NCBI RefSeq assembly: GCF_036170895.1
Contig: NZ_CP108036.1
Location: 6,069,501-6,133,500 of the forward strand
DNA: 64,000 nt
Source: Streptomyces erythrochromogenes
GTDB taxonomy: Bacteria > Actinomycetota > Actinomycetes > Streptomycetales > Streptomycetaceae
Direction of reading: 5' to 3'
Shown here: in pieces, positions 143-34,705 of the stretch
Numbering within the stretch: the stretch's first letter is position 1
How the letters are laid out: every line of letters begins with the position of its first letter
Program-made: the position numbers and the translations under genes
Notes under the pieces: model-generated
Databases searched by the model: none
Told to the model about the DNA's origin: nothing
What the model saw: only the letters and a program-made list of their open reading frames with translations

Positions 143-1060
143 ATGGCGGGACTGTGCGAGGGCCGGGTCGTGATCGTGACGGGCGCCGGGCGGGGGCTGG
201 GCCGGGCCCATGCGCTGGCCTTCGCCGCGGAAGGGGCGAGGGTCGTCGTCAACGACCTGGGCGTGGGCCTGGACGGGCTGCCCGGGCCGGAGAGCCCGGC
301 GGCGCAGGTGGTCCGGGAGATCGAGGCGCTGGGCGGCGAAGCCGTGGCGCACGGCGGGGACATCGCGACCCCGCAGGGCGCGGACTCCCTGGTGGAAGCC
401 GCCCTCGACGCCTTCGGGCGCCTCGACACGCTCGTCAACAACGCCGGGTTCCTGCGGGACCGGATGCTGGTGAACCTGGACGAGGACGACTGGGACGCCG
501 TCATGCGGGTCCACCTGAAGGGCCACTTCCTGCCGCTGCGGGCCGCTGCCGCGTGGTGGCGGGCGGAGGCGAAGGCCGGCCGGCCGGTGGCCGCCCGGGC
601 CGTCAACACCTCCTCCGGGGCGGGGCTGCTGGGCTCCGTCGGCCAGGGCAACTACAGCGCCGCCAAGGCGGGCGTCCTCGGCCTCACCCTGGTCGCGGCC
701 GCCGAGATGGGCCGGTACGGGGTCCACGTCAACGCGATCGCCCCGGCCGCGCGGACGCGCATGACGGAACGGGCCTTCGCGCAGACCATGGCCGCCCCCG
801 AGGACGGCGGCTTCGACGCGATGGCCCCCGAGAACGTGTCACCGCTCGTGGTCTGGCTCGGCGCGGACGCCTCGGCCGGGGTCACCGGACGGGTCTTCGA
901 GACCGAGGGCGGCCGGATCACGGTCATGGAGGGCTGGCGGCCGGGCCCCACCGCCGACCGCGGGGCCAGGTGGACCCCGGCAGAGGCGGGCGAGGCGGCC
1001 GTCAAGCTCCTGGCCGCGGCCGAACCGCCGCTCCCGGCGTACGGATCCGGCCCGGCCTAG
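143..1060 (+). CDS. Short-chain dehydrogenase (hydroxyacyl-CoA/steroid-type SDR)
   Basis: A 305-residue NAD(P)-dependent SDR. ATG at 143 was chosen over an upstream GTG because AAGGAGAG lies just before it and the previous gene stops at 141. Visible motifs are TGAGRGLGRAHA (cofactor-binding glycine motif, about residues 14-25), NNAG (central strand) and YSAAKAG (catalytic Tyr and Lys). The acidic residue after the second strand (VVNDLG) resembles the multifunctional-enzyme type 2/hydroxyacyl-CoA dehydrogenase group, and the C-terminal tail with EGWRPGP is also typical of that group. The likely role is oxidation of a 3-hydroxyacyl-CoA or hydroxysteroid in cytoplasmic catabolism. It sits directly after another SDR in one operon. 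The exact substrate is unknown. Confidence 0.85.
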   Translation: MAGLCEGRVVIVTGAGRGLGRAHALAFAAEGARVVVNDLGVGLDGLPGPESPAAQVVREIEALGGEAVAHGGDIATPQGADSLVEAALDAFGRLDTLVNNAGFLRDRMLVNLDEDDWDAVMRVHLKGHFLPLRAAAAWWRAEAKAGRPVAARAVNTSSGAGLLGSVGQGNYSAAKAGVLGLTLVAAAEMGRYGVHVNAIAPAARTRMTERAFAQTMAAPEDGGFDAMAPENVSPLVVWLGADASAGVTGRVFETEGGRITVMEGWRPGPTADRGARWTPAEAGEAAVKLLAAAEPPLPAYGSGPA

Positions 1061-1083
1061 GGGGCGACCGGCCGATCAGGGCG

Positions 1084-1815
1084 CTACTTCGCGGACACGG
1101 CCGAGGCCGTGTCCGCGGACGGCTTCTCCAGGCCGAGCATCTCCAGGGCCGAGTCCATCTCCGCCTGGAACAGCACCCGCGGGTTCGCGTCCGGGCCGAA
1201 CTGGCGGTAGACCTCCAGCGCGACGGGGCCGTACATGCGGCCCCACACGCGCAGCGACGCCAGCAGCGCCTGCGGCGGGAGGTGGGGGAAGCACTCGCGG
1301 GCGAGCGCGGCCAGGGAGGGGACGAAGTCGGCCCACTCCGCCTCGGCCCGCTTGAGCTGCTCGGGCGCCTGCGGCCAGGCGGCGTCGACCAGGCCGAGGA
1401 GGATCATGCAACATCGGCGGGCGGCCGCCACGACGATGTCGGCCGTCGGGGCGTACCCGGGGGAGCTGTCCCCGTAGGTGAGGCGGAACTCCGCCGGGTG
1501 GGTGCGGGCCCACTCCCGGAAGGTGCCCGCGACCGCGAGCAGCCGGGCCGCGGTCGCGTCCTCGGGCAGCGCGTCCCGCGCCGCCTCCTGCTGGTCGGCC
1601 AGCCGGTTGTACGTGTCCGCGGCCAGCGTCGCCAGCAGGTCGTCCCGGGTGTCGAAGTACCCGTACAGGGCCGCCGCCGTCATACCCATCTCGCGCGCGA
1701 TGCCGCGCAGGGTGATCCCCGCGACGTCACCGGCGGCGAGCAGGTCGAGTGCGACCTCCTTGATCTGCGCGGTGGTCTCGATCCGAAGGCGTTCGCGGCG
1801 GGACAGGGTCTGCAT
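1084..1815 (-). CDS. TetR/AcrR-family transcriptional regulator
   Basis: A 243-residue repressor-type protein. The N-terminal HTH is clear: a helix from about residue 16 (IKEVALDLLAAG), then ITLRGIAREMGMTAAALYGYFDTRDDLLATL, the canonical TetR recognition region. The C-terminal ligand domain is of the kind often seen in Streptomyces TetR proteins with a WHG-like fold (FREWARTHPAEFRLTYG near residue 100). It is convergent with the SDR ending at 1060. Its promoter lies between 1816 and the end of the permease remnant and contains AAAC-ACC-GTTT, a possible autoregulatory site. It could control the neighbouring SDR/MFS genes, but nothing in the sequence proves this. Confidence 0.9.
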   Translation of the reverse strand: MQTLSRRERLRIETTAQIKEVALDLLAAGDVAGITLRGIAREMGMTAAALYGYFDTRDDLLATLAADTYNRLADQQEAARDALPEDATAARLLAVAGTFREWARTHPAEFRLTYGDSSPGYAPTADIVVAAARRCCMILLGLVDAAWPQAPEQLKRAEAEWADFVPSLAALARECFPHLPPQALLASLRVWGRMYGPVALEVYRQFGPDANPRVLFQAEMDSALEMLGLEKPSADTASAVSAK

Positions 1816-1865
1816 GGCGGGGGCTCCTCCTCAGGGACAGGGCGAGAGTGTCGCACCCCCCGTAC

Positions 1866-1876
1866 AAACACCGTTT
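1866..1876. promoter_or_regulatory. Possible TetR operator upstream of the 1084-1815 gene
   Basis: The inverted repeat AAACACCGTTT lies about 50 bases upstream of the TetR start, inside an AT-richer patch (ACAAACACCGTTTACTTACC) that would also hold the minus-strand -10 region. Size and position fit a TetR autoregulatory operator. The match is short, so this is tentative. Confidence 0.3.
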
Positions 1877-1878
1877 AC

Positions 1879-2827
1879 TTACCTTACCGTGTTGACGAAC
1901 CGCAACTCGCCGGTCCTCCGCCGGCCCCGCGTGAGGACGCGGGCGACCAGCACCACCCCCAGACTGCCCAGGCTCATCAGCAGTTGGGGCCGCGTCTGCG
2001 CGGTGAACAGCACGGAGCACAGGACCGCCGACAGCGCCAGCACCACCAGCACCGTCAGGTACGGGAAGCCCCACATCCGGAAGGTCATCCTCTCGGGCTC
2101 GGTGCGCTCGGTCCGGATCCGCAGCACGAACTGGGAGACGGCGATCCCCAGATACATGATGACGAGCACGGCACCGGTCGAGTTGAGCAGGAAGGGGAAG
2201 GTCCGCCCCGGGCTCACCGCCTGCGCCGCGACCGCCCCGCAGCCCACCACGGTGCCGAGCAGCACCGCCCGCCGCGGCGCGGCCGCCCACCGCGGCGCGT
2301 CCCCGTGCCCGGCCAGCGTGTGCAGCATGCGCGAGGAGGCGTACAGCGTGGAGCCCAGTACGGACATGAGCGCGGTCAGGATCACCGCGCTCATCGCCGA
2401 CGCCGCGAAGGGCACGCCGATCCGGTCCAGCGCCGTCACGTACGGGCTCTCCCCGCCGGAGATCTGCGGCCAGGGCACGATCGCGACCACCAGCAGCACC
2501 GAGCCGAGGAAGAACACCAGGATCCGCCAGACGATCTGACGGGTGGCCCGCGCGACGGCCCGGCCCGGATCGGGGCACTCGGCGGCCGCGACCGCCACGA
2601 TCTCCGTCCCGCCGAAGGCGAAGACGACGCCGACGGTGGCGGTGAGGACAGCGCCGGGCCCGTGCGGGGCGAACTCCCCGTGCGCCGTGAGGTTCCCCAG
2701 CGCCGGACCCGGCCGGGCCGCGTGCGGGAGCGGCGACGGCGTCGGTGGCGGCGAGCGGGCCGGCCATCCCGGCGCCCGCGGCGACGGCGGAGGCGGCGAG
2801 GAATCCGCGGCGGTCCAGGTTCGGCAT
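1879..2827 (-). pseudogene. Chimera: Tat signal peptide joined out of frame to the C-terminal half of an amino-acid permease
   Basis: From ATG at 2827 (AAGGGA ribosome site upstream) the frame encodes a clean Tat leader (MPNLDRRGFLAASAVAAG, then an Ala-rich stretch to about residue 35) belonging to some exported protein. From about 2740 downwards a different frame reads as an APC-superfamily permease, with GNLTAHGEF, an FAFGGTEIVAVAAAE helix and the segment up to the stop at 1879. That part has several hydrophobic helices but lacks roughly the first five of the family's twelve. The internal ATG at 2598 gives a 239-residue open frame, too short to be a working permease. The likeliest reading is a deletion that joined the first codons of one gene to the middle of another in the same orientation, with a frame change at 2700-2750. 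Confidence 0.7.
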
Positions 2828-2957
2828 GACAGGTTCCCTTGCGTGGCGCGAGTGCGGTACGTGGTGGGGGGCTGTGCGGTGGGGGAGGGGAGCCGGGCCC
2901 CGGAGCGGAGCGGGGGCTCGATGCGTCTCCGGGGCCCGGCGTCGGAGGGGCGGGCCG

Positions 2958-3704
2958 TCAGGCGTTGGCGCCGCCGTCGACGGTCAGCGTGGTGCCCGTG
3001 ACGAACGAGGCCTCGTCGCTCGCCAGGTAGAGGACGGCGCTCGCGATCTCCTCGGCGCGTCCGTAGCGTCCGAAGACGTTCAGGCCGCGTTGGAAGTCGG
3101 CGGACGGGCCGTCGGCCGGGTTCATGTCGGTGTCGATCGAGCCGGGGGCCACCTGGTTGACGGTGATGGCGCGCTCGCCCAGGTCACGGGCGAGACCCAC
3201 GGTCAGGCCGTGGACGGCCGCCTTCGACATGGCGTACGCGGTGAAGCCCGGCGCGGGTACCTGCGTGGCGAGGCAGGAGCCGATGTTCACGATGCGGCCG
3301 CCGTCGGGCATGGACCGGGAGACGGCCTGGGCGGTGAGGAAGGCGCCGCGGACGTTGATGTCCAGGGTCCGGTCGAGGGTGGCGAGCGGCACCTCGGCGA
3401 GCGGCGGGCAGGTCATGTCCGCGTATCCGGCGTTGTTGACGAGGATCCGCACCGGGCCGAGTTCGCGCACGACGCGGTCCACGGCCGCGGTGACGGCCTC
3501 CGCGTCGGCGGCGTCCGCCTCGACGGTCACGGCGCGCCGGCCCAGCGCCCGTACCTGGCCGGCTACTTCCTCGGCCTGCTCCTTGTTCGAGCGGTAGGTG
3601 ATCGCGACGTCGGCGCCGTGGGCGGCGAGCGTGCGGGCGATCTCGGCGCCGATGCCGCGGGAGCCGCCGGTCACCAGGGCCACGCCGTGGAGAGTGGTCG
3701 TCAC
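2958..3704 (-). CDS. SDR-family NAD(P)-dependent oxidoreductase (FabG-like)
   Basis: A 248-residue classical SDR. ALVTGGSRGIGAEIA near the N-terminus is the cofactor motif, YRSN after the second strand suggests NADPH preference, NNAG is present, a Ser lies in NIGSCLA, and the catalytic pair is in YAMSKAA. The C-terminus SFVTGTTLTVDGG is complete. The MFS exporter starts 52 bases upstream on the same strand, so the two probably form one operon. This arrangement is common for small-molecule export or detoxification sets. The sequence suggests a 3-oxoacyl/ketone reductase fold but does not fix the substrate. Confidence 0.88.
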   Translation of the reverse strand: MTTTLHGVALVTGGSRGIGAEIARTLAAHGADVAITYRSNKEQAEEVAGQVRALGRRAVTVEADAADAEAVTAAVDRVVRELGPVRILVNNAGYADMTCPPLAEVPLATLDRTLDINVRGAFLTAQAVSRSMPDGGRIVNIGSCLATQVPAPGFTAYAMSKAAVHGLTVGLARDLGERAITVNQVAPGSIDTDMNPADGPSADFQRGLNVFGRYGRAEEIASAVLYLASDEASFVTGTTLTVDGGANA

Positions 3705-3756
3705 AATGATTCCTTTTCTGTGTGCGGGAGTGGGGTGGTCTGGAAGGGTGCCGGGC

Positions 3757-4962
3757 TCAGGCCGCGGCCGGCTGCCGCTCGGGGGCGGCCGGGGCGCAGC
3801 CGCCGGTGCCGCCCTTCGCGCTCCGCAGGTCCGGGAGGAGGGTGAACAGACCGAGGAAGGCCATGATCACGCCCAGTACGAGCGGGGCCCGGAGCCCGTA
3901 GGCGTTGATTCCGACACCGCCGAGCCAGGAGCCGATGACGATGCCGAGAGTGATGAAGGACGAGTGCACGGTGTTGACCAGCGGGCGGGCGTTCGCGGTG
4001 CGCTGGACCCGGGTGATCATGCAGGGGTTCATCGTGACGCCGACCAGGCCGATGCCCATCATGAAGATCAGCGCGGGCGCGGTGACCTCGGCGAAGACGG
4101 CGAAGCCGGCGAGGAAGACCATGTTCAGGCCGAGCCCGACGAGCTGGGTCACGATGGTGTGCTTGTCGGCGAAGCGGCCCACGATGTTGTTGCCGACGAC
4201 GGTCGCCGCTCCGTAGGCGACCAGCAGCCCGGGCACCGCGCCCTCGCTGAAGCCCGTGAGCTCGGTGAGGATCGGGGTGAAGTAGCTGAACGCGGAGAAG
4301 GTGGCGCCGATGATCAGCGTGGAGGTGGAGAACACCAGCCACAGCCGCGGGTTCTTGAAGGCGCGCATCTCCTCCTTGACGGAGGAGCCGCCCCCCGACT
4401 GGGCGCCGGTCACGGACGGCACGCCGAAGACCGTGGCCAGGGCCGCGACGACGGTCAGGGCGGAGATCGCCCAGAACGCGGCCCGCCAGCCCAGCTGACC
4501 GCCCACGAAGGTGGAGATGGGCAGGCCGAGCAGGGTGCCGAGCATCAGGCCGTTCATCGCGGCGCCGATCGCCTTGCCGCGCATCTCGGGCTTGGTGATC
4601 TCGGCGACGACCGAGAGCGACACGCCGAAGAAGGCGGAGGAGGCGACACCGGTGATGACGCGGCCGATGGCCATCGTGAGGTAGTCGGTGGACAGGGCGG
4701 CCAGGATGTTGCCGCCGAGGAAGACGGCGAAGAGGACCATCAGGGCGCTCTTGCGCGGGAGCTTCAGCACCGCGGTGGCCAGGAACGGCCCGCCGAGGGC
4801 CATGGCGACGGCGAACGCCGTGATGAGGTAGCCGACTTGGGGGATGGTGGCCCCGACTCCCTCGGAGATCTGGGGCATCAGGCCGGCCACCACGAATTCG
4901 CTGGTGACCATGGCGAAGATGCCGAGGGCGAGGACGTACACGGCCTTGGGCACGGCCGTCAC
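3757..4962 (-). CDS. MFS drug/metabolite exporter (DHA1, AraJ-like)
   Basis: A 401-residue major facilitator protein with about 12 hydrophobic segments. It starts with VYVLALGIFAMVTSEFVVAGLMPQI, the signature first helix of DHA1 sugar/drug efflux proteins, and has GRVITGVASSAFFGV and GNNIVGRFADKHTI (loop 2-3 and 8-9 type motifs). It sits in the cytoplasmic membrane and probably exports a small molecule by proton antiport. The promoter region (4963-5096) carries a perfect 10-bp palindrome, AACGATCGTT, of TetR-operator style. The gene that should encode the local TetR repressor (5097-5849) has lost its DNA-binding domain, so control may now be lost or depend on the TetR at 1084-1815. Confidence 0.9.
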   Translation of the reverse strand: MTAVPKAVYVLALGIFAMVTSEFVVAGLMPQISEGVGATIPQVGYLITAFAVAMALGGPFLATAVLKLPRKSALMVLFAVFLGGNILAALSTDYLTMAIGRVITGVASSAFFGVSLSVVAEITKPEMRGKAIGAAMNGLMLGTLLGLPISTFVGGQLGWRAAFWAISALTVVAALATVFGVPSVTGAQSGGGSSVKEEMRAFKNPRLWLVFSTSTLIIGATFSAFSYFTPILTELTGFSEGAVPGLLVAYGAATVVGNNIVGRFADKHTIVTQLVGLGLNMVFLAGFAVFAEVTAPALIFMMGIGLVGVTMNPCMITRVQRTANARPLVNTVHSSFITLGIVIGSWLGGVGINAYGLRAPLVLGVIMAFLGLFTLLPDLRSAKGGTGGCAPAAPERQPAAA

Positions 4963-4978
4963 AACCTTTCTATGGATA

Positions 4979-4988
4979 AACGATCGTT
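4979..4988. promoter_or_regulatory. Palindromic operator in the MFS promoter
   Basis: AACGATCGTT is a perfect palindrome 17 bases upstream of the MFS start, close to an AT-rich stretch (TATGGATAAA) that could be part of the promoter. TetR-family repressors of exporter genes typically bind sites of this form and position. The binding protein is not known. Confidence 0.45.
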
Positions 4989-5096
4989 CCAGAATTCGGG
5001 CAGGCGCAACCCAGGCGTGGTGCAGAGGGAATGGGCGCCGGTCGGATGCCGGTCAGGCGGGCGCCGGGCGGTTGTCGGATGGTCTTCAGGTGGTCG

Positions 5097-5849
5097 TCAG
5101 GCGGTACAGGACAGGCCCTGGAGGGCCTGGTCGACGACCTGCGCCAGGTAGTCCCGCCCCGCCGTCCGCTCCATCACGCGCAGCCCATGGGTGAGGGTGA
5201 CGAGGAAGCGGGTGGCGGACCGTACGTCGGTACCGGGCGCCAGCTCGCCGGCGGCCCGGGCCCTCAGCAGGAGGTAGGCGAAGGCCTCCTCCAGCGAGCC
5301 CAGCGCACCGCCGAGCCGCTGCGCCGCCTTCCCGTCCCCCGGCAGCCGCTCCAGTACGCCGTGCGTGACCATGCACCCGCCGCGCAGCGGGTCGGCCAGC
5401 GCGGAATCGACGTACGAGAGGAGGCCCGCAGGACCGGCCGGGCCGGTGTCGGACTCGGCGAGGGTCGGCCACATCCCGCGGGCCACCTCGTCGTCGAGGT
5501 AGCCGGAGTAGATGCCCGAGTCCATGCCGATCATCGCGCACCAGCCGACGGAGACGTCCCCGGCGGAGAGGATCTCCAGGAGTTCGGCCTGCTGCATCGA
5601 GGTCAGCTCCGGACCGCCCCAGGTCTTGGGCATGGCGGCACGGAACACCCCCGCGCCGCGGAGCAGTTCCACGATGTCCTCGGGCAGCCGGCGCCCGTCC
5701 TCGATGCGTGCGGAGTTCTCCCGCAGGAACGGTACGAGCTCGCGGGCGCGGTCCAGGATCGCCTCGGCGGTGTCGGGTACGTACGGCGTCGTCGTCATCA
5801 CGTTCTCATCAGGGGTGCGGGTCGGGTGGGACGGTGCGGCGGCGCTCAC
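5097..5849 (-). pseudogene. In-frame fusion of an acyl-CoA-dehydrogenase-like monooxygenase N-terminus to a TetR C-terminal domain
   Basis: The 250-residue open frame starts with a GTG that overlaps the previous stop as GTGA. Residues about 18-130 match the N-terminal helical domain of ACAD-fold flavin monooxygenases (HsaA/HpaB-like proteins): RLPEDIVELLRGAGVFRAAMP, then WGGPEL, and SAGDVSVGWCAMIG. From about residue 135 the sequence changes to a TetR ligand-binding domain: RGGCMVTHGVLERLP, LEEAFAYLLLRARAAGEL and a GLRVMERT helix. Neither half is complete: the flavin/substrate core of the enzyme and the TetR HTH are both missing. A deletion of the sequence between two adjacent same-strand genes explains it. 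A working protein is unlikely, although a ligand-binding TetR core could still fold. Confidence 0.65.
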
Positions 5850-6535
5850 GCGTAGCGTCCGGCGGCCATGACCCCGAGGGGGTCGACGGCGGTGCGCAGG
5901 GCGCGCTGGAGGGCGGCCTCGGCGGCGGCGCCCCCCGCGACGGAGCGGGCGTGCCCGGAGTCGAGGCGGTAGGGGCGCAGGCCGGCCTCGCCGAACCAGG
6001 TGTGGGCGAGGTCGAGGGCGCTGTGGGCGGCCTCGACCTGCGTGGCCCGGTCGAAGGGGAAGGACACGACGAGGTCGATGACGTCGGCGTCCCGGGCGTT
6101 GACCGTGGAGCCGGGCCGGATGCCGGTGGCGAGGTGGATGCGGTCCAGGATGTCCAGGGCCCGCACCACCGACGCGCCGTCGAAGGGCAGGAACGGCAGG
6201 AAGAACAGCCAGCCGTTGCCGTCGGCGTCCACCCGGTCGGCGGCCGCGCCGGTGGCGGAGGCGAGCATGCGCTCGTTGTGCGCGACCGAACCGCGGTAGG
6301 CGGCGTCCACCACGTGGGCGACGACGTCGTCGTCGGCGGGGGGCTGCCCGTCGCCGGCAGCGGCCGAGGTGAACAGGCCCGTCCCGGCGATCTCGTCCAG
6401 CAGGGCCGCCTTGAGGGCGGCGGCCGAGCGGTCGGTGCCCTCCACGCTCATGTGGGCGACGTAGCCGCCGGCGGTGTCCCCGCCTGGCGTCGGCGAACTC
6501 CTCGTCCGCAACGGACTGGAACGCGACGCCGTCAT
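5846..6535 (-). pseudogene. C-terminal fragment of a vanillyl-alcohol-oxidase/4-cresol-dehydrogenase-type FAD oxidase
   Basis: A 229-residue frame whose ATG shares its A with the stop of the flavin reductase (TGATG). The C-terminal part fits the cap/C-terminal region of VAO-type FAD-linked oxidases: WLFFLPFLPFDGA, a VNARDADVIDLVVSFPFDR strand pair, and the end ALRTAVDPLGVMAAGRY, equivalent to the family's DP-G-AAGRY ending. The whole N-terminal PP-loop FAD-binding domain (about 250 residues) is absent, and the first 25 residues look unrelated. It is therefore a 5'-truncated gene still inside its operon. The ancestral enzyme would oxidise a para-substituted phenol. Confidence 0.6.
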
Positions 6536-7026
6536 CAGCTCATGTTCACCGCGAGCCCGGGCCGCACGTGCTCCACGCGGGCGAGGAAGAGCGTGGGGTC
6601 CCCGCCGGGGAACCGCTCCTCGATCCGGCAGCCGAGCGAGGCCAGGGCGCCGGGCAGGTACGGGTGGGAGCCTTCGCCGTCGGTGGTGAAGTGCCCTTCC
6701 AGGTCCCGCCCGAAGGGCTTGTCGCGGGAGGCGAAGAGCCGCGCCACGTCGCCCTGGCGGTCGGAGAGCAGGTGGACCTGGAGCTCTCCGCTGGAATCGA
6801 TCGCCGGATACGTGCGGGACGACTTCATGACGGAGACCAGGACGCGGGGCGGGTCGAGCGAGATCGAGACGAACGAGTTCGCGGTCATCGCCGCCGCGCG
6901 GTCGCCCCGACCGGACGACAGGACGGTGACGCCCGTCGGGAACAGCCGCATCACGGCCCGGAGATCGTCCGGCGGCGCGGATGCGGATCGGGGTACGGGC
7001 CTGGCTGGGCCCAGAGTTGTGGCCAT
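6535..7026 (-). CDS. Flavin reductase of a two-component monooxygenase (possibly 3'-shortened)
   Basis: A 163-residue flavin reductase-like protein. LFPTGVTVLSSGRGDRAAAMTANSFVSISLDPPRVLVSV is the classical start of the split-barrel FMN/FAD reductases that feed reduced flavin to HpaB/HsaA-type oxygenases, and LGCRIEERFPGGDPTLFLARVEHV follows. Family members usually end a little later with a YY/G-G-Y element. Here the protein stops right after the VEHV strand, so the last strand may be lost. First gene of the minus-strand operon, with a 21-bp near-perfect palindrome in its promoter. Its oxygenase partner downstream is reduced to a fragment. Confidence 0.75.
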   Translation of the reverse strand: MATTLGPARPVPRSASAPPDDLRAVMRLFPTGVTVLSSGRGDRAAAMTANSFVSISLDPPRVLVSVMKSSRTYPAIDSSGELQVHLLSDRQGDVARLFASRDKPFGRDLEGHFTTDGEGSHPYLPGALASLGCRIEERFPGGDPTLFLARVEHVRPGLAVNMS

Positions 7027-7058
7027 GTCCCCCCTCCTCAGGAGTTATCGGCGGAAGA

Positions 7059-7079
7059 AAACTTAACAGAGTTTAGTTT
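7059..7079. promoter_or_regulatory. 21-bp near-perfect palindrome in the flavin-reductase promoter
   Basis: Half-sites AAACTTAAC and GTTTAGTTT (8 of 9 positions symmetric) flank a 3-base centre, 33 bases upstream of the flavin-reductase start and inside the only AT-rich stretch of the region. Size and symmetry fit a TetR- or MarR-family operator. The obvious candidate regulator is the TetR whose C-terminal half survives at the end of this operon. Confidence 0.55.
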
Positions 7080-7231
7080 CGATGGAAACCCAGGTCAGAG
7101 GCCCATCGATCGCCTTTATCGCAATCGAAATAGGCTTTGGATCATGGAACTAACGGAGGAGGTCGGGCCGGTGGCCCGGCCTGCAACGCCGGCGGCCGCA
7201 GGGGCCGGTCCGCGGAGGCCGGAAACGGAAG

Positions 7232-7264
7232 CGGGCCCGGCCCCCTGGCGAGGGGTCGGGCCCG
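7232..7264 (-). terminator. Hairpin terminator of the acid phosphatase gene
   Basis: A 13-bp stem (one G-T pair) with a 7-base loop: CGGGCCCGGCCCC pairs with GGGGTCGGGCCCG. It lies about 135 bases past the phosphatase stop. There is no U tract, as is usual for Streptomyces terminators. Confidence 0.6.
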
Positions 7265-7398
7265 AGTCTTCGTCGGTGCGTTGAGGTATGACTACCCGCT
7301 GGGTCCACCCGCTGAACCGCAGTCAGGCCGTCATGTTGTGCGCGACGGTCCGTGCGAAGATCGTGCACGAAGGGGAACCGGGCGGTTCCCCCCGCGCG

Positions 7399-8076
7399 TC
7401 AGGAGAGCTTGCCGCCGTAGTCCGGGAGCTTGACGGTGCGTTCGGCGTGACCCCCGACCAGGTCGGTGGGGCTGTTTCCGATGTTGGCGATGATCGTGTA
7501 GCCGCGCGCCTCGATCTCCGCGCGCTTGGCCGTCTTGTAGGTGCTGACCTCCTCGAAGAGGTCGGGCAGGTCGCGGACGTAGAGCCCCGACACCGGGTAG
7601 CCGACGGCCTTGAGGTTGTACTCGGTGAGGGAGTGGATGATGCCGGGGCGGGCCGTGACGAAGAAGACGGCCACGCCGCGCGCGTGGGCGTACTGGGTCA
7701 GGGCGCGGACCTTGGCGATGGCGGGCGTCGGGTAGGTCCAGAACCAGTGGAAGTCCGTCTCCAGCGAGGTGTTGTCGATGTCGAGGACGAGGGCCGGCTT
7801 CTCGCCGGCGGGCGAGTTCGCGATGCGCTGCTCGATGGCCGGACGGGCCGCGTCGACGGCGGCGGCCACCTCCCGCTGCCAAGTGGCGTAGTCGATGCCG
7901 AGTATCGCCGCGTTCCCGCCCGGCGCGGACGCGTTCGCCGATGAGGAGACGGGCGCGGGCGCGGCGACGGGGGCCGCCTCGGCCGCGGTGGCCGGAACGA
8001 GCGTCAGGACGGCGGCCGCTGCGGCGAGGCCGGCGGCGGCGGTACGGGGCGTTCTGGTGCGGCGGGACAGGCGCAT
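7399..8076 (-). CDS. Secreted HAD-family acid phosphatase (class B-like)
   Basis: A 225-residue exported phosphatase. ATG at 8076 was chosen because GAGGAG lies 7 bases upstream; an in-frame start 60 bases earlier has no such site. Residues about 1-35 form a signal peptide (RRTRTPRTAAAGLAAAAAVLTLV, AEA cleavage area). HAD motifs are complete: ALVLDIDNTSLET (motif I, DxDxT nucleophile), FVTARP (motif II), a Lys in YKTAKRAEIE (motif III) and ANIGNSPTDLVGG (motif IV). The family hydrolyses phosphomonoesters outside the cell for phosphate supply. It is a single-gene transcript with its own terminator. Confidence 0.88.
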   Translation of the reverse strand: MRLSRRTRTPRTAAAGLAAAAAVLTLVPATAAEAAPVAAPAPVSSSANASAPGGNAAILGIDYATWQREVAAAVDAARPAIEQRIANSPAGEKPALVLDIDNTSLETDFHWFWTYPTPAIAKVRALTQYAHARGVAVFFVTARPGIIHSLTEYNLKAVGYPVSGLYVRDLPDLFEEVSTYKTAKRAEIEARGYTIIANIGNSPTDLVGGHAERTVKLPDYGGKLS

Positions 8077-8229
8077 GTGGGGTGCTCCTCGGTCGCGAAT
8101 TGACATGGACGTGACCAGAGTTGGCGAGAACCGCACCCATGTCTACTGGCCGGTAGGAAACTTTTCGCGACCGATCGGTGAATGATCAAGCCAAGTGCGC
8201 GCGGACCGGGGCCACCGGGACCATCGGGA

Positions 8230-10050
<1,821 letters not shown>

Positions 10051-10069
10051 CCCCCGCAGCCCCCGTACC

Positions 10070-10114
10070 GCCTCGTCCTTCCGGCCGGGTACGAACCGGC
10101 CGGAAGGACGAGGC
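10070..10114 (+). terminator. Strong hairpin terminator after the trypsin gene
   Basis: A perfect 19-bp stem (10070-10088 with 10096-10114) and a 7-base loop, starting 20 bases after the trypsin stop. The stem begins GCCTCGTCC and ends GGACGAGGC. Confidence 0.85.
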
Positions 10115-10285
10115 GCACCCGTTTCCACCCGCGTAGCGTCGGCTGACGGACCGCAAGGCCGGAACACCGCCGTCCGCGCCTCGCGACACCCTCCCGGCGG
10201 CCCGCCGTGCGGGTGCGGGCCGACGCACGCACCGGTCCCATGGGAGGAAACCGGTGGCAGCGGGCGACAGCCGGGCAGGTGGCGC

Positions 10286-11245
10286 ATGGCGATCAGCGTG
10301 GTCATCGCGGACGACCAGGAGATGGTCAGGACCGGCTTCCGGATGATCCTCGAAAGCCAGCCGGACATCGAGGTCCTCGCCGACGTCGTCGACGCAGGAG
10401 CCGCCCTCGCCGCAGTCGCCGAGCACCGCCCCGACGTCCTCCTCCTCGACATCCGCATGCCCAGGCTCGACGGCCTCGACGTCACCCGGCGCCTGTCCGG
10501 CAGCGACCGGCCACGCATCGTCATCGTGACCACCTTCGACCTCGACGAGTACGTCCACGCAGCGCTCCACGGCGGAGCGTCCGGCTTCCTCCTCAAAGAC
10601 GCGAGCCCGGCCATGCTGGTTGAGGCCGTACGGGCGGCAGCCGTCGGCGACTCCCTCGTCTCGCCCGCCGTCACCGTGCGACTGCTGCGCGAAATGGCGC
10701 CGAAGACCCCGGCCGCCCAGGCCCGCCGCCCCAGCGAACCCCTCACGGAACGCGAGCGCGACGTCGTGCGCTGCCTCGCCCGCGGGATGACCAACGCCGA
10801 GATCGCCGGCGAGCTCTACGTCTCCCTCTCCACCGTCAAGACCCACCTGGCCAACGTCCAGGCCAAACTCGACGCCCGCAACCGCGTCGAGATCGCCGCA
10901 TGGGCCCGGGAAAGCGGCCTGGCCCTCACCAACACCGCCAAGCACGCCGCCACCGCCACCGCCGTCCGCGTCACGCTGCGCACCGTCCCCGCCGGCCTCG
11001 AGGTCCGCATCGCCGACGACGGAGGCCGCCCCGCCCGCCTCTCCGAAAAGGCCCGCGGCGGCGGCTACAGACTCGCCGGCATGACCGAACGCGCCGAGGC
11101 CCTCGGCGGCCACTTCACCGCGGGCCCAGCCCCGGAGGCGGCTGGGTCGTCACCGCGGTCCTGCCCCTGTGACCCGACCGCCGTCTCACAGGCCGACTAC
11201 CCCCGCGACCTGCGCGCCCGCGCCACGTATTCTCGACAACCATGA
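10286..11245 (+). CDS. NarL/LuxR-type response regulator with a fused histidine-kinase C-terminal remnant
   Basis: The 319-codon frame starts with a complete response regulator: receiver domain (VVIADDQEMVRTGF, phospho-Asp in VLLLDIRMP, TTFD, K in FLLKD) and LuxR HTH (LTERERDVVRCLARGMTNAEIA to VKTHLANVQAKL) ending near residue 213. It then runs without a stop into the ATPase end of a sensor kinase: LTNTAKHA (N box), VRIADDGG (G box) and GGGYRLAGMTERAEALGG. The kinase lacks its sensor and DHp domains. Near 11137 the frame slips: one missing C in a C-run puts the normal kinase end (GGGWVVTAVLPL, stop at 11172) in another frame. The ORF therefore ends with foreign residues that overlap the next gene. 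The regulator part is probably functional; the tail is a deletion scar. Confidence 0.75.
   Translation: MAISVVIADDQEMVRTGFRMILESQPDIEVLADVVDAGAALAAVAEHRPDVLLLDIRMPRLDGLDVTRRLSGSDRPRIVIVTTFDLDEYVHAALHGGASGFLLKDASPAMLVEAVRAAAVGDSLVSPAVTVRLLREMAPKTPAAQARRPSEPLTERERDVVRCLARGMTNAEIAGELYVSLSTVKTHLANVQAKLDARNRVEIAAWARESGLALTNTAKHAATATAVRVTLRTVPAGLEVRIADDGGRPARLSEKARGGGYRLAGMTERAEALGGHFTAGPAPEAAGSSPRSCPCDPTAVSQADYPRDLRARATYSRQP
11228..11233 (+). promoter_or_regulatory. Probable -10 element giving a leaderless chorismate mutase mRNA
   Basis: TATTCT sits 8 bases before ATG 11242, and there is no ribosome-binding sequence between them. Transcription would start at or within a few bases of the start codon, as in many Streptomyces leaderless genes. 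Confidence 0.4.
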
Positions 11246-11604
11246 ACATCAGCGACCTCGACAACGGCACGGGCAACGGCAACGGCACGGGCCGCGCCGC
11301 CGACGGCATCGACGAGAGCGTCACCGCCGAACTCGCCCGCTTGCGGGACAGCATCGACAACATCGACGCGGCCGTGGTCCACATGCTCGCCGAACGCTTC
11401 AAGTGCACCCAGCAGGTCGGCCACCTCAAGGCACGCCACCAGCTGCCCCCCGCCGACCCCGGCCGCGAGGCCAGCCAGATCGCCCGGCTCCGCCAGCTCG
11501 CCGAGAACGCCAAGCTCGACCCCGCCTTCGCCGAGAAGCTCCTCAACTTCATCATCGCCGAGGTCATCCGCCACCACGAGACGATCGCCGCGGGCGAGGA
11601 GTAG
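11242..11604 (+). CDS. Chorismate mutase (AroQ class, monofunctional)
   Basis: A 120-residue protein. After a variable Gly/Asn/Thr-rich N-terminus (about 25 residues, imperfect GTGNGNGTG) comes the all-helical CM type II domain: LARLRDSIDNIDAAVVHMLAERFKCTQQVGHLKARHQLPPADPGREASQIARLRQLAE, then a final helix with FIIAEVIRHHE. It converts chorismate to prephenate for Phe/Tyr synthesis in the cytoplasm. Basic and acidic residues expected in the active site (R in the first helix, the K/R of the KARH segment, E near the third helix) are present. It overlaps the stray end of the chimeric frame before it. A -10-like TATTCT suggests a leaderless transcript. pepN follows after 39 bases. Confidence 0.9.
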   Translation: MNISDLDNGTGNGNGTGRAADGIDESVTAELARLRDSIDNIDAAVVHMLAERFKCTQQVGHLKARHQLPPADPGREASQIARLRQLAENAKLDPAFAEKLLNFIIAEVIRHHETIAAGEE

Positions 11605-23378: not shown

Positions 23379-23945
23379 GTGGACGTCATCAAACTGCTCG
23401 AAACAGCCGCACTCCTGACCCCCGAAGAGACCGCCACCGGCAACGACCTCACCGGCCGGGACGTCTGGGAACTCCTCGCCCACGACGAGTGGGAAACCGC
23501 CCTCACCCTGCTCGAAGACGTCAGGAACGCACGACCCCTGCCCCTGACCTCCTGGGAACAACTCGCCGACGCCGCCCAGCAGCTCCACCTCGAACGCAGC
23601 ACCGCCTGGTGCCACTGGCGGGCCGCCGAAACCCGCAACGGAATGATCCGCGCCGACCTCACCCTCGGCGCCCGCACAACACCGATCCCCGGACACGGCG
23701 TACTACGTCCCGTATGGGACATCGGCAACCTCTCACCCACCGGAGACCCGGCCGTGAACATCGCCGCACTCTGGCTCGAAAACACCCGCTTCCTGGAACC
23801 CGGCGACCGGGCCACCGCCCGCCTCGTCCCCCTCACCCCCACCCAGTGGCAACACGTCCGCCCCGGCCAACGCATCACCCTGCACGAAGGCCGGCCCGCG
23901 ATCGCCACCGCCGTCGTGACCGAGGTCCACCTCCCCACCGCATAA
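23379..23945 (+). CDS. Hypothetical protein, conserved next to pyk
   Basis: A 188-residue protein from GTG 23379. The first half is helical and acidic (VWELLAHDEWETALTLLEDVRN, WEQLADAAQQLHLERSTAWCHWRAAETR). The second half looks like a small beta-barrel with the layout ARLVPLTPTQWQHVRPGQRITLHEGRPAIATAVVTEV, which resembles the third domain of translation GTPases (EF-Tu/EF-1A C-terminal barrel). No GTPase domain is present. I do not recognise a function. From memory a protein of this kind sits beside pyk in other Streptomyces. Its 3' end overlaps the convergent EF-hand frame. Confidence 0.65.
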   Translation: MDVIKLLETAALLTPEETATGNDLTGRDVWELLAHDEWETALTLLEDVRNARPLPLTSWEQLADAAQQLHLERSTAWCHWRAAETRNGMIRADLTLGARTTPIPGHGVLRPVWDIGNLSPTGDPAVNIAALWLENTRFLEPGDRATARLVPLTPTQWQHVRPGQRITLHEGRPAIATAVVTEVHLPTA

Positions 23946-24147
23946 CCCCGGCGTCCCCGTTCGCATCCGCCTCGTCGAACAACGCCGACGACGCCTCCGC
24001 ATCCCCCACACCCCCGAACGGCAGATCACCCCGCGCCGCCGGCGTCGGTCCCGTCGACCACAACGCCGAGATCACCTCCGCGCGCGTCAGCTCACCATCG
24101 GCATCCAGATCCAGCGCCTCGAACAACAGCCAGGCCCTCTCACTCAT
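23875..24147 (-). CDS. Small EF-hand protein with a degraded second hand
   Basis: A 90-residue frame from ATG 24147. The first EF-hand is complete: ALDLDADGELTRAEVISAL, with Asp/Asp/Asp/Glu ligands in the 12-residue loop. A second helix and loop begin (ALFDEADANGDAG), but at the point where the -Z and Glu ligands should come the frame turns into Arg/Gly-rich sequence overlapping the end of the convergent 23379-23945 gene. The original 3' end was probably lost or replaced. It may bind one calcium ion through the first hand. Confidence is limited by the overlap and the degraded end. Confidence 0.45.
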   Translation of the reverse strand: MSERAWLLFEALDLDADGELTRAEVISALWSTGPTPAARGDLPFGGVGDAEASSALFDEADANGDAGVMRWGGGPRSRRRWRSRAGLRAG

Positions 24148-24211
24148 CACGCACACCCCTCGTCGCACCACTCCTTGACCCCAAGCCCACTTGAGGTCCT
24201 ACGGTCACACC

Positions 24212-25306: not shown

Positions 25307-25809
25307 GCGCGAGCATCCGGGACCGCACCGACCCCGACCTCAGCCACTGCGTACACGTCCTGGCAGAGGTCCACGAACACGACCGCTACCCGGTCAACTG
25401 GCCCGCCGCGCCCGACGCATGGCTCACCCCTCCCTCACTCCTCGACGCGTGGGTGGCGGAACTTCACGGCCGCATCGCCGGCCACGTCGTCCTGTCCCGC
25501 AGCGGCGCGGAAGACGCGGCGCCCGGCCTGTGGAGCGCCCGCACGGGAGCGGGCCAGGACACGACCGCCGTGATCAGCCGACTCTTCGTCGCCCCGTCCG
25601 CCCGCGGGCACCGCATCGGAGCGGCCCTCATGGCCCACGCCACCACGCAGGCCCGCAGCCGCGGTCTGCACCCGGTGCTCGACGTACTGTCCTCCGACAC
25701 CGCGGCGGCAGCCCTGTACGAACGCCTCGGCTGGCAACTGCTGGGCACGGTCGAACAGCGGTGGAGCCCGACCCGGACGGTGACCGTCCGCTGCTACGCG
25801 GCGCCCTAG
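25303..25809 (+). CDS. GNAT acetyltransferase
   Basis: A 168-residue acetyltransferase. GTG 25303 overlaps the previous stop. Core motif A: ISRLFVAPSARGHRIGAALMAHATTQARSRGLHPVLDVL, with the RGHRIGA acetyl-CoA pyrophosphate loop, then AAALYERLGWQLLG (motif B). The substrate is unknown. It forms a translationally coupled pair with the preceding GNAT, which suggests joint action or simple operon inheritance behind the MarR-like regulator. It converges on the broken HTH/LAGLIDADG gene with a 4-base overlap. Confidence 0.82.
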   Translation: MSASIRDRTDPDLSHCVHVLAEVHEHDRYPVNWPAAPDAWLTPPSLLDAWVAELHGRIAGHVVLSRSGAEDAAPGLWSARTGAGQDTTAVISRLFVAPSARGHRIGAALMAHATTQARSRGLHPVLDVLSSDTAAAALYERLGWQLLGTVEQRWSPTRTVTVRCYAAP

Positions 25810-26551
25810 TACTTCGGTCCGATGTGGGCGTCCATGAGCGCGACGGACGCTTTCCGGGCGACGGACACGTTGAACGGGTCGCTGCCGCGGGCCAGGATCG
25901 TCCACTCGACGCCGAGTGCGGTGAGCGTGTCGGTGCAGAGCCTCCGGATGTCGTCCGACTTGTCGGTGAAGAAGTACCGCGGGTACTCGTAGCGCTTGCC
26001 GTTGCGGACGGTCCAGTTGGTGATCCGACACCCGTCGGAGTGGATCAGCCCCCGGACGAACTCCCAGGGGTACGCGTCGACGATCTCCTGCTGCCAGCCT
26101 TCGAGCGCGATCCGCCGCTCGTGCTTCTTCCCCGGCCCGTGCTGCGGAACAGGCACGTCCAGTGCCGCCCGTAGCTGGTGACGTTGACGCAGCCCTGGCG
26201 CTGCAGCACGTAGACCTTGTCGGACGGCCGGACTGCCGAGATCGCTTCGGCGGCTCTGCTCGATCAGGCCGGGCCAGGCGTCCGCGCACACGATGCGCAG
26301 GTAGTGGCCACCCTTCGGGTGGGAGCTGATGCAGCCGTCACCGAGGTGGAGGCCGAAGAGAGAGGAGTACGCGGCTCGATCGGCCGGACCCGTGCACGGC
26401 TGAGCCTGGTTGAGCCAGGAAGCGGCTCGATGCGTACGCGCCAGGAGCGGATTGCGGCCCGGGATATTCCCGCTTCTTTGCTGACGGCGTTGAGGCTGCG
26501 GCCGTCACCCAGGAGCCTGAGAGCGTGTTTGCGGGTAGCGAGGTCGTACAT
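25806..26551 (-). pseudogene. Frameshifted HTH plus LAGLIDADG-like protein
   Basis: The pieces of one gene lie in different frames. From ATG 26551: MYDLATRKHALRLLGDGRSL and VSKEAGISRAAIRSWRVRIEP, an N-terminal HTH. Then in a second frame about 26390-26270: SSLFGLHLGDGCISSHPKGG and LRIVCADAWPGLIEQ (first LAGLIDADG-like repeat). Then in a third frame about 26265-26150: AEAISAVRPSDKVYVLQRQG and VTSYGRHWTCLF. Then back to the second: PQHGPGKKHERRIALEGW, EFVRGLIHSDGCRITNW (second repeat) and VARKASVALMDAHIGPKY, stopping at 25806. At least three indels separate the parts; the last is a missing C in TTCCGCAG. Intact versions of this protein are widespread in Streptomyces and have an HTH joined to a homing-endonuclease-like fold. 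This copy is dead. Confidence 0.8.
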
Positions 26552-34396: not shown

Positions 34397-34705
34397 GTGA
34401 GCGGACGCCGGAGCGCGACAGACTTGATCGAATCGGCTTGGCGCGAGCTGGACGCCCCCGACGCGGGCACCCGGGACGGCTGTCTCGAAGTCATCGCCGA
34501 CATCCCGGAGCGGGGCCTTCTGGCGAGGGCCGACGCCGAGCGGGTCGCCGGGCGCCTCGTCGCGGTCGCCCTCTCCGACGAGGGCTACGCGCTGCGGGAG
34601 GCCGCACTGAACGCGCTCGGTGCGGGCACCACGTCCTACGAGTTCCCCTACGGGGTGCCGGCGCCGCTGGCCGTCGGCGTGGACCGTTTCGAACCCCTGC
34701 TCCTG
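34397..34705 (+). pseudogene. 5' part of a helical-repeat-like protein without its own stop
   Basis: GTG 34397 opens a frame with good codon bias: RSATDLIESAWRELDAPDAG, then CLEVIADIPERGLLARADAERVAGRLVAVALSDEGYALREAALNALGAG, arranged like a helical (HEAT-type) repeat, then YEFPYGVPAPLAVGVDRFEPLL. After about 34705 the sequence becomes low-complexity and the frame runs on, without a stop, through the oppositely oriented thioesterase gene to 35350. The coding signal therefore ends where a 3' portion should continue. A deletion that removed the 3' end is the likely cause. I cannot name the family with certainty. Confidence 0.45.

Follow-up and report, generated by a model that had tools for sequence, protein, structure and literature searches.

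Why do joins between pieces of different genes occur four times within about 10 kb of one Streptomyces chromosome? The joins lie near the start of a 64,000-nucleotide stretch of Streptomyces erythrochromogenes (the window; 6,069,501-6,133,500 of an 8.5-Mb contig, the second contig of the genome being 0.1 Mb), where a sequence-only reading had picked out a Tat leader joined to half a permease, an acyl-CoA-dehydrogenase-like (ACAD-like) N-terminus joined to a TetR C-terminus, a fragment of a VAO-type oxidase and a response regulator joined to a kinase end. We found by alignment to Streptomyces amritsarensis and to a further relative, G078, that all four junctions exist and mark DNA lost relative to these relatives. 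Three of them lie inside an accessory island (about 1050-7210) and the fourth in a two-component regulator/kinase pair. Very probably, these are two dispensable loci that decay side by side through independent deletions, which is ordinary and well-documented genome decay. Our literature search turned up no publication on this locus, and we make no wider claim.

The four junctions

As the main reference for the intact island we used S. amritsarensis (NZ_MQUR01000005.1, L066), the single relative returned when genome contigs were scanned with the VAO fragment; its identity to the window is 93-96% across the island and 91% across 6557-10669. For the genus search 392 genomes were drawn, 22 of them unscored, and the protein searches listed 120 of 205, 120 of 7995 (the regulator-kinase query) and 2 of 2 matches. 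Ten open reading frames (ORFs) between 1727 and 11245 were scanned with Pfam. Many junctions against distant relatives were poorly defined and were left unused.

The S. amritsarensis island runs in one direction and encodes a flavin reductase (179 aa), a type I chorismate mutase, an FAD_binding_4 oxidase (496 aa), an ACAD-like protein (392 aa), a formyltransferase, a cupin, a TetR regulator (199 aa), an MFS transporter, an SDR and an amino-acid permease (451 aa), the MFS and SDR genes being named after their window copies (Pfam). For the ACAD-like protein and the flavin reductase, the best models are two-component monooxygenase ones (HsaA, HpaC), with matches far below the cut-offs. The corresponding remnants in the window, with the regulator/kinase chimera, are the following.

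5097..5849, minus strand: in-frame chimera of an ACAD-like N-terminus and a TetR C-terminus (Pfam; alignments; same chimera in P0001)
5846..6484, minus strand: VAO-type FAD oxidase, C-terminal ~212 residues (intact 496-aa form in S. amritsarensis)
6485..6556, no strand: junction filler (3 unmatched bases, then an inverted copy from the deleted block)
6557..7026, minus strand: flavin reductase without its last residues (Pfam Flavin_Reduct; ORF 6535-7026)
1879..2709, minus strand: amino-acid permease, C-terminal ~277 codons (AA_permease 212-427 only; alignment end 2709)
2709..2827, minus strand: junction and Tat-leader gene remnant, out of frame with the permease (about 0.5 kb shorter than in S. 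amritsarensis)
10286..11245, plus strand: in-frame chimera of a LuxR-type response regulator and a histidine kinase end with an altered tail (Pfam; junction 10922/10923; different fusion in P0128)

The first of these is a single ORF in which Acyl-CoA_dh_N (27-109) and TetR_C_13 (146-234) share one frame, just as had been read from the letters. Relative to S. amritsarensis, 2623 bp are missing at 5442-5466, and this loss took the ACAD C-terminus, the formyltransferase, the cupin and the DNA-binding half of the TetR regulator. The junction falls within the same interval and has a 3-bp match (AGG).

The neighbouring ORF (5846-6535) holds the last ~212 of the 496 residues of an FAD_binding_4 (VAO-type) oxidase and gave no FAD_binding_4 match in Pfam. 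Its description as a C-terminal oxidase fragment stands; the truncation of the adjoining flavin reductase (163 aa versus 179 aa in S. amritsarensis) and the filler at the junction had been overlooked. Here 1276 bp are missing at 6484-6557 versus S. amritsarensis, which removed the chorismate mutase along with the end of the flavin reductase and the oxidase's first ~284 residues. The inverted match in the filler is exact over 51 bp (6488-6538) and weaker beyond, with the flavin reductase side resuming from 6557, and its alignment score is 110, versus 20 for the other strand and a maximum of 28 in 300 shuffles. The start codon of the VAO-fragment ORF (6535) falls inside this filler.

At the permease, the first ~174 codons are gone and only Pfam AA_permease profile positions 212-427 remain, versus a match of 1-427 in the intact S. 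amritsarensis protein. The claim of a Tat leader joined to half a permease is thus right for the truncation and wrong for any fusion protein, since the leader and the permease sit in different reading frames. A net 499 bp is missing at 2709-2769 versus S. amritsarensis, where the Tat gene is likewise a remnant of about 31 codons followed by a stop. At this place S. amritsarensis carries a deletion of its own, which blurs the exact join.

For the regulator/kinase pair we preferred G078, in which both genes are whole, as the reference because the S. amritsarensis regulator is itself decayed. Versus G078, 940 bp are missing from the regulator end into the kinase, with a 3-bp match (GCC) at the junction; versus S. 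amritsarensis, 689 bp are missing at 10669-11024. The response regulator is indeed joined to a kinase piece (HATPase), and the two share one frame across 10922/10923; compared with intact homologues, the kinase tail of the chimera is frame-shifted as well. Another S. erythrochromogenes sequence, P0128, has the window's altered kinase tail, but its regulator part covers residues 1-102 and it retains a larger share of the kinase (286 aa versus 319 aa in the window). Since the two share the altered tail and differ in the join, two different deletions struck a pair whose tail was already altered. The kinase part of P0128 begins after the ELHDLVAHHVTG stretch, which we take to be the H-box, and the stretch holding this presumed H-box is gone from both fusions.

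Misassembly could in principle have joined unrelated genes, and the exact regulator-kinase and Tat/permease joins were found, among the matches listed, in this assembly only. The ACAD-TetR chimera recurs, however, with one residue different, in P0001 (5 member sequences), whose representative, among the matches listed, lies on a 1.888-Mb contig, as compared with the 8.5-Mb contig here. The VAO fragment, its start again supplied by the filler, recurs in P0241 (4 members) and P0119 (4 members, 2 contigs); the P0119 form continues into the TetR end and so reflects a further or different deletion. The genome assembly also has 2 contigs, 100% completeness and 0.86% contamination. Because the same fragments, and also different fusions at both loci, occur in other assemblies, a single assembly error is extremely improbable.

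The two loci in relatives and the clustering of losses

Intact homologues exist in close relatives, in the form of the S. amritsarensis island and the G078 regulator/kinase pair, and full-length VAO-ACAD pairs are also present in G017, G019 and G028. A chimeric layout common to the genus had been named by the sequence-only reading as evidence against itself, and the outcome was this: the same fragments appear in very close sequences (P0001, P0241; among the matches listed), whereas the VAO-ACAD pairs are intact in S. amritsarensis, G017, G019 and G028, and in 10 of the 17 genomes surveyed both regulator and kinase are whole, or whole to the end of the fetched stretch.

Independent inactivation is also seen at both loci: the regulator/kinase pair is broken or missing in 7 of the 17 genomes, the window's included, and further cases are P0119, P0128 and the G066 remnant. 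Of the island, G066 retains only a 65-bp MFS piece (86% identity, E 5e-17) and one weaker 33-bp match, and G078 and G251 appear to have other ORFs at its place and show only short matches inside the island (ORF reading without profile scan). The fragments thus lie in one island and one two-component pair that are both broken in other ways in relatives, which bears out the suggestion that accessory loci are decaying, and both loci are dispensable.

The stretch between an SDR gene and an acid phosphatase gene (window 1048-7399) differs from relative to relative, with the island in the window and S. amritsarensis, almost nothing in G066 and other ORFs in G078 and G251.

The regulator/kinase survey covered 17 genomes with matches above 60 bits. 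The pair is broken or missing in the window, G066, S. amritsarensis, G012, G293, G251 and G063, and is whole, or whole to the end of the fetched stretch, in the other 10, among which the kinase match is cut by the stretch end in G302, G281 and G223, while in G070 the stretch stops with the match at residue 375 of 384. Neither gene was seen in G251; in G063 the frame changes within the regulator, and no kinase match follows in the next 762 bp. S. amritsarensis has no kinase match above 60 bits, yet a DNA alignment covers the final ~150 bp of the kinase region. In G078-kinase numbering, residues 316-373 are left in the window, 341-384 in G066 and 238-384, at another place, in G012.

In G012 (C1) the regulator (L047 11227) and the kinase remnant (L048 10699) lie at 7.235 and 8.867 Mb, 1.63 Mb apart and in opposite orientation, a layout that a large inversion with one end between regulator and kinase may have left. 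This rearrangement was rejected as the cause of the window junction, since the G012 kinase piece starts at about residue 238 and not 316, which makes it a separate break at the same place. Adjoining the regulator region in the alignments of several relatives is a 322-aa ORF (window 8230-9198), for which neither Pfam nor PHROGs gave a match at E 0.001.

Just beyond the chimera, the 3' end (11529-11588) of a chorismate mutase gene (11242-11604) resembles an empty phage attachment site. At that site G066 holds a 59.6-kb insert (C26:29141-88760, L091-L094) flanked by a 60-bp repeat, 30 bp of it exact, with integrase, RecT-like and endolysin matches, the integrase being recognised by PHROGs and not by Pfam. 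S. amritsarensis has more than 60 kb of other DNA at the same site, of which 2,968 bp (81%) around the integrase are common to the G066 insert.

Over 174,355 bp collinear with S. amritsarensis, the window's chromosome has lost DNA at 7 places and gained it at 8, counting differences of at least 100 bp. Five of the seven losses fall between 1080 and 11024 where 0.40 would be expected, and a fraction of 0.0009 of 20,000 simulations had as many in any 10 kb, although the window was picked after the data were seen and one of the five, at 1082, is an intergenic stretch 211 bp shorter than in S. amritsarensis and unpolarised in its direction of change. This agrees with the earlier judgement that the joins exceed chance. 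The gains show no significant clustering (0.98 at 10 kb, 0.16 at 18 kb).

A process that deletes between same-strand genes had been proposed; for such a process, special to this lineage and acting across the genome, speak the clustering of five of seven losses within 10 kb and the comparison with G251 alone, in which the window's chromosome is the shorter one in 29 of the 46 differences of 100 bp or more and the longer one in 17 (about 383 kb). The other counts speak against it: beyond the 7 losses and 8 gains versus S. amritsarensis, 12 of 41 such differences versus G078 are shorter and 29 longer (about 383 kb), and where G078 and G251 agree in sign, 8 differences are shorter and 14 longer (about 383 kb). 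In S. amritsarensis the island genes, flavin reductase through SDR and permease, all run one way, and therefore any deletion there joins same-strand genes without a special process. We consider such a process highly improbable. The loss cluster is local to the two loci, and the strain has no general deletion bias over the stretch compared, which was about 384 kb of the 8.6-Mb genome.

Three further places had been put forward as continuing the theme, and none holds up. The first (23875-24171) is a short reading frame whose EF-hand match is weak (E 2e-5) and falls below the cut-off; the second (25806-26551) is mostly aligned in S. amritsarensis, G078 and G251, which makes it an old shared stretch; and the third (34397-34705) aligns in G251 and not in S. 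amritsarensis, G066 or G078. The second consists of two short ORFs, one with weak helix-turn-helix/transposase matches, and is possibly an old transposase remnant.

Constraint on the remnants

The TetR, ACAD, VAO and flavin-reductase pieces together differ from S. amritsarensis by 53.5 nonsynonymous and 38.5 synonymous changes, versus 60 and 118 for five intact genes (SDR1, SDR2, TetR1, MFS and acid phosphatase). The nonsynonymous excess is significant (Fisher P 0.00016 with rounded counts; 0.0013 with the permease piece included). As a group, then, the remnants appear to be under relaxed constraint. The ratio of nonsynonymous to synonymous rates (dN/dS) also takes in the period that preceded the deletions, as well as change on the branch of S. 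amritsarensis. Three intact genes of the island are as follows.

1084..1815, minus strand: TetR-family regulator 1, intact, at the island edge (ORF collinear with S. amritsarensis; dN/dS 0.20; family name by reading, without profile scan)
2958..3704, minus strand: SDR (SDR2), intact (Pfam adh_short_C2; dN/dS 0.06)
3757..4962, minus strand: MFS transporter, intact (Pfam MFS_1; dN/dS 0.27)

The low ratios of MFS and SDR2, set beside the cut or vanished oxidase, oxygenase, mutase, formyltransferase and cupin genes, are what one would see if selection had removed the biosynthetic enzymes and kept the exporter and the SDR, as when a costly product is dropped and tolerance to it retained. This is unlikely: in G066 the MFS gene too is lost except for 65 bp, and the ratios take in the earlier time and the other branch as noted above.

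The reading frame is preserved at two of the four joins, where chance would give one in three, and the two loci have yielded two more in-frame chimeras, P0128 and P0119, both found by protein searches that are blind to out-of-frame cases. If this reflected selection, the chimeras would be functional new proteins. Against this, the ACAD-TetR protein is without the helix-turn-helix, DNA-binding half of TetR and the ACAD C-terminal domain, the VAO fragment is without its FAD_binding_4 match, both regulator-kinase fusions are without the presumed H-box stretch, and nonsynonymous change is raised across the fragments as a group. Function under selection is very unlikely for these chimeras. There is an equally slim chance that deletions are a repeated natural source of single-chain proteins, as one two-component pair fused in frame twice in sister strains and the ACAD-TetR and VAO-TetR chimeras might suggest; if such chimeras were made and sometimes kept, end-joining deletions, with inverted filler giving a start codon, would repeatedly yield new Streptomyces proteins. 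For annotators there is a caution here: database entries for ACAD-TetR and regulator-kinase 'fusion proteins' probably represent the decayed remains of adjacent genes and not designed hybrids.

Deletion mechanism and comparison with known systems

Independent deletions of about 0.5-2.6 kb took gene interiors out of the two loci and joined the remainders; selection on both had presumably lapsed beforehand, and the broken ends were presumably sealed by end joining (Ku-dependent or similar). The three resolved junctions have short or no homology: two show a 3-bp match each, and the third has filler that includes 3 unmatched bases. Short direct repeats, which had been suggested as something to look for, are thus present as 3-bp matches at two junctions and replaced by filler at the third, where 51 bp from near the break, in the deleted block, were inserted in inverted form (one of three resolved gene junctions). 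The genome has two Ku genes. In view of the 3-bp matches, the filler, the published scars described below and the two Ku genes, we regard end joining as the most likely mechanism. The second Ku gene lies on the 0.1-Mb contig (G000:C2:61131-61670) and scores above its Pfam cut-off.

Deletion mediated by repeats, insertion sequences or an integrase would leave other traces. The two simple junctions have no direct repeats longer than 3 bp, and no transposase or integrase was found among the ten scanned ORFs between 1727 and 11245. Repeat- or element-mediated deletion was rejected for the simple junctions on the 3-bp matches.

Several observations count against decay by end-joined deletions as set out here. 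A 3-bp match has a chance of ~0.08 per junction at this GC content and so is weak evidence; the Tat/permease join is blurred with S. amritsarensis as the reference; and the joins were read in assembled sequence. The exact regulator-kinase junction of the window was not seen in other assemblies among the 120 of 7995 hits listed. Taken singly, the permease (0.23) and ACAD (0.29) pieces have low dN/dS, and the intact ORF at 8230-9198, left out of the Fisher test, has 0.38.

Pseudogene decay of dispensable bacterial genes is a familiar process. The window resembles it in its successive independent deletions and in the shifted kinase tail, all in genes that relatives also lose, and we see no difference in kind. 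The indel hot spots described between conspecific Streptomyces are like the island in being one place with differing gene sets from relative to relative; the events in the passages of that study are whole-gene gains and losses, largely ascribed to conjugation, whereas those of the window are base-level deletions of parts of genes within an island (PMC6722414).

The closest likeness is to the scars of mutagenic nonhomologous end joining in Streptomyces ambofaciens. According to passages of that work (PMC5869714), the repaired breaks, which had been induced, carried deletions of 191-23,591 bp, with 1-6 nt micro-homologies in 50% of the scars, and there were two clones with 42- or 83-bp insertions of nearby origin. 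The window is alike in deletion size, in junction matches of a few bases and in short filler copied from nearby. The S. ambofaciens work induced the breaks and put their Ku dependence to the test, whereas the events in the window are natural and the pathway is deduced; the filler in the window is inverted, whereas those passages leave the orientation of the insertions unstated (PMC5869714). The window thus offers natural deletion junctions with close intact relatives that resemble experimental Streptomyces end-joining scars, and at one of them an inverted filler made a new start codon.

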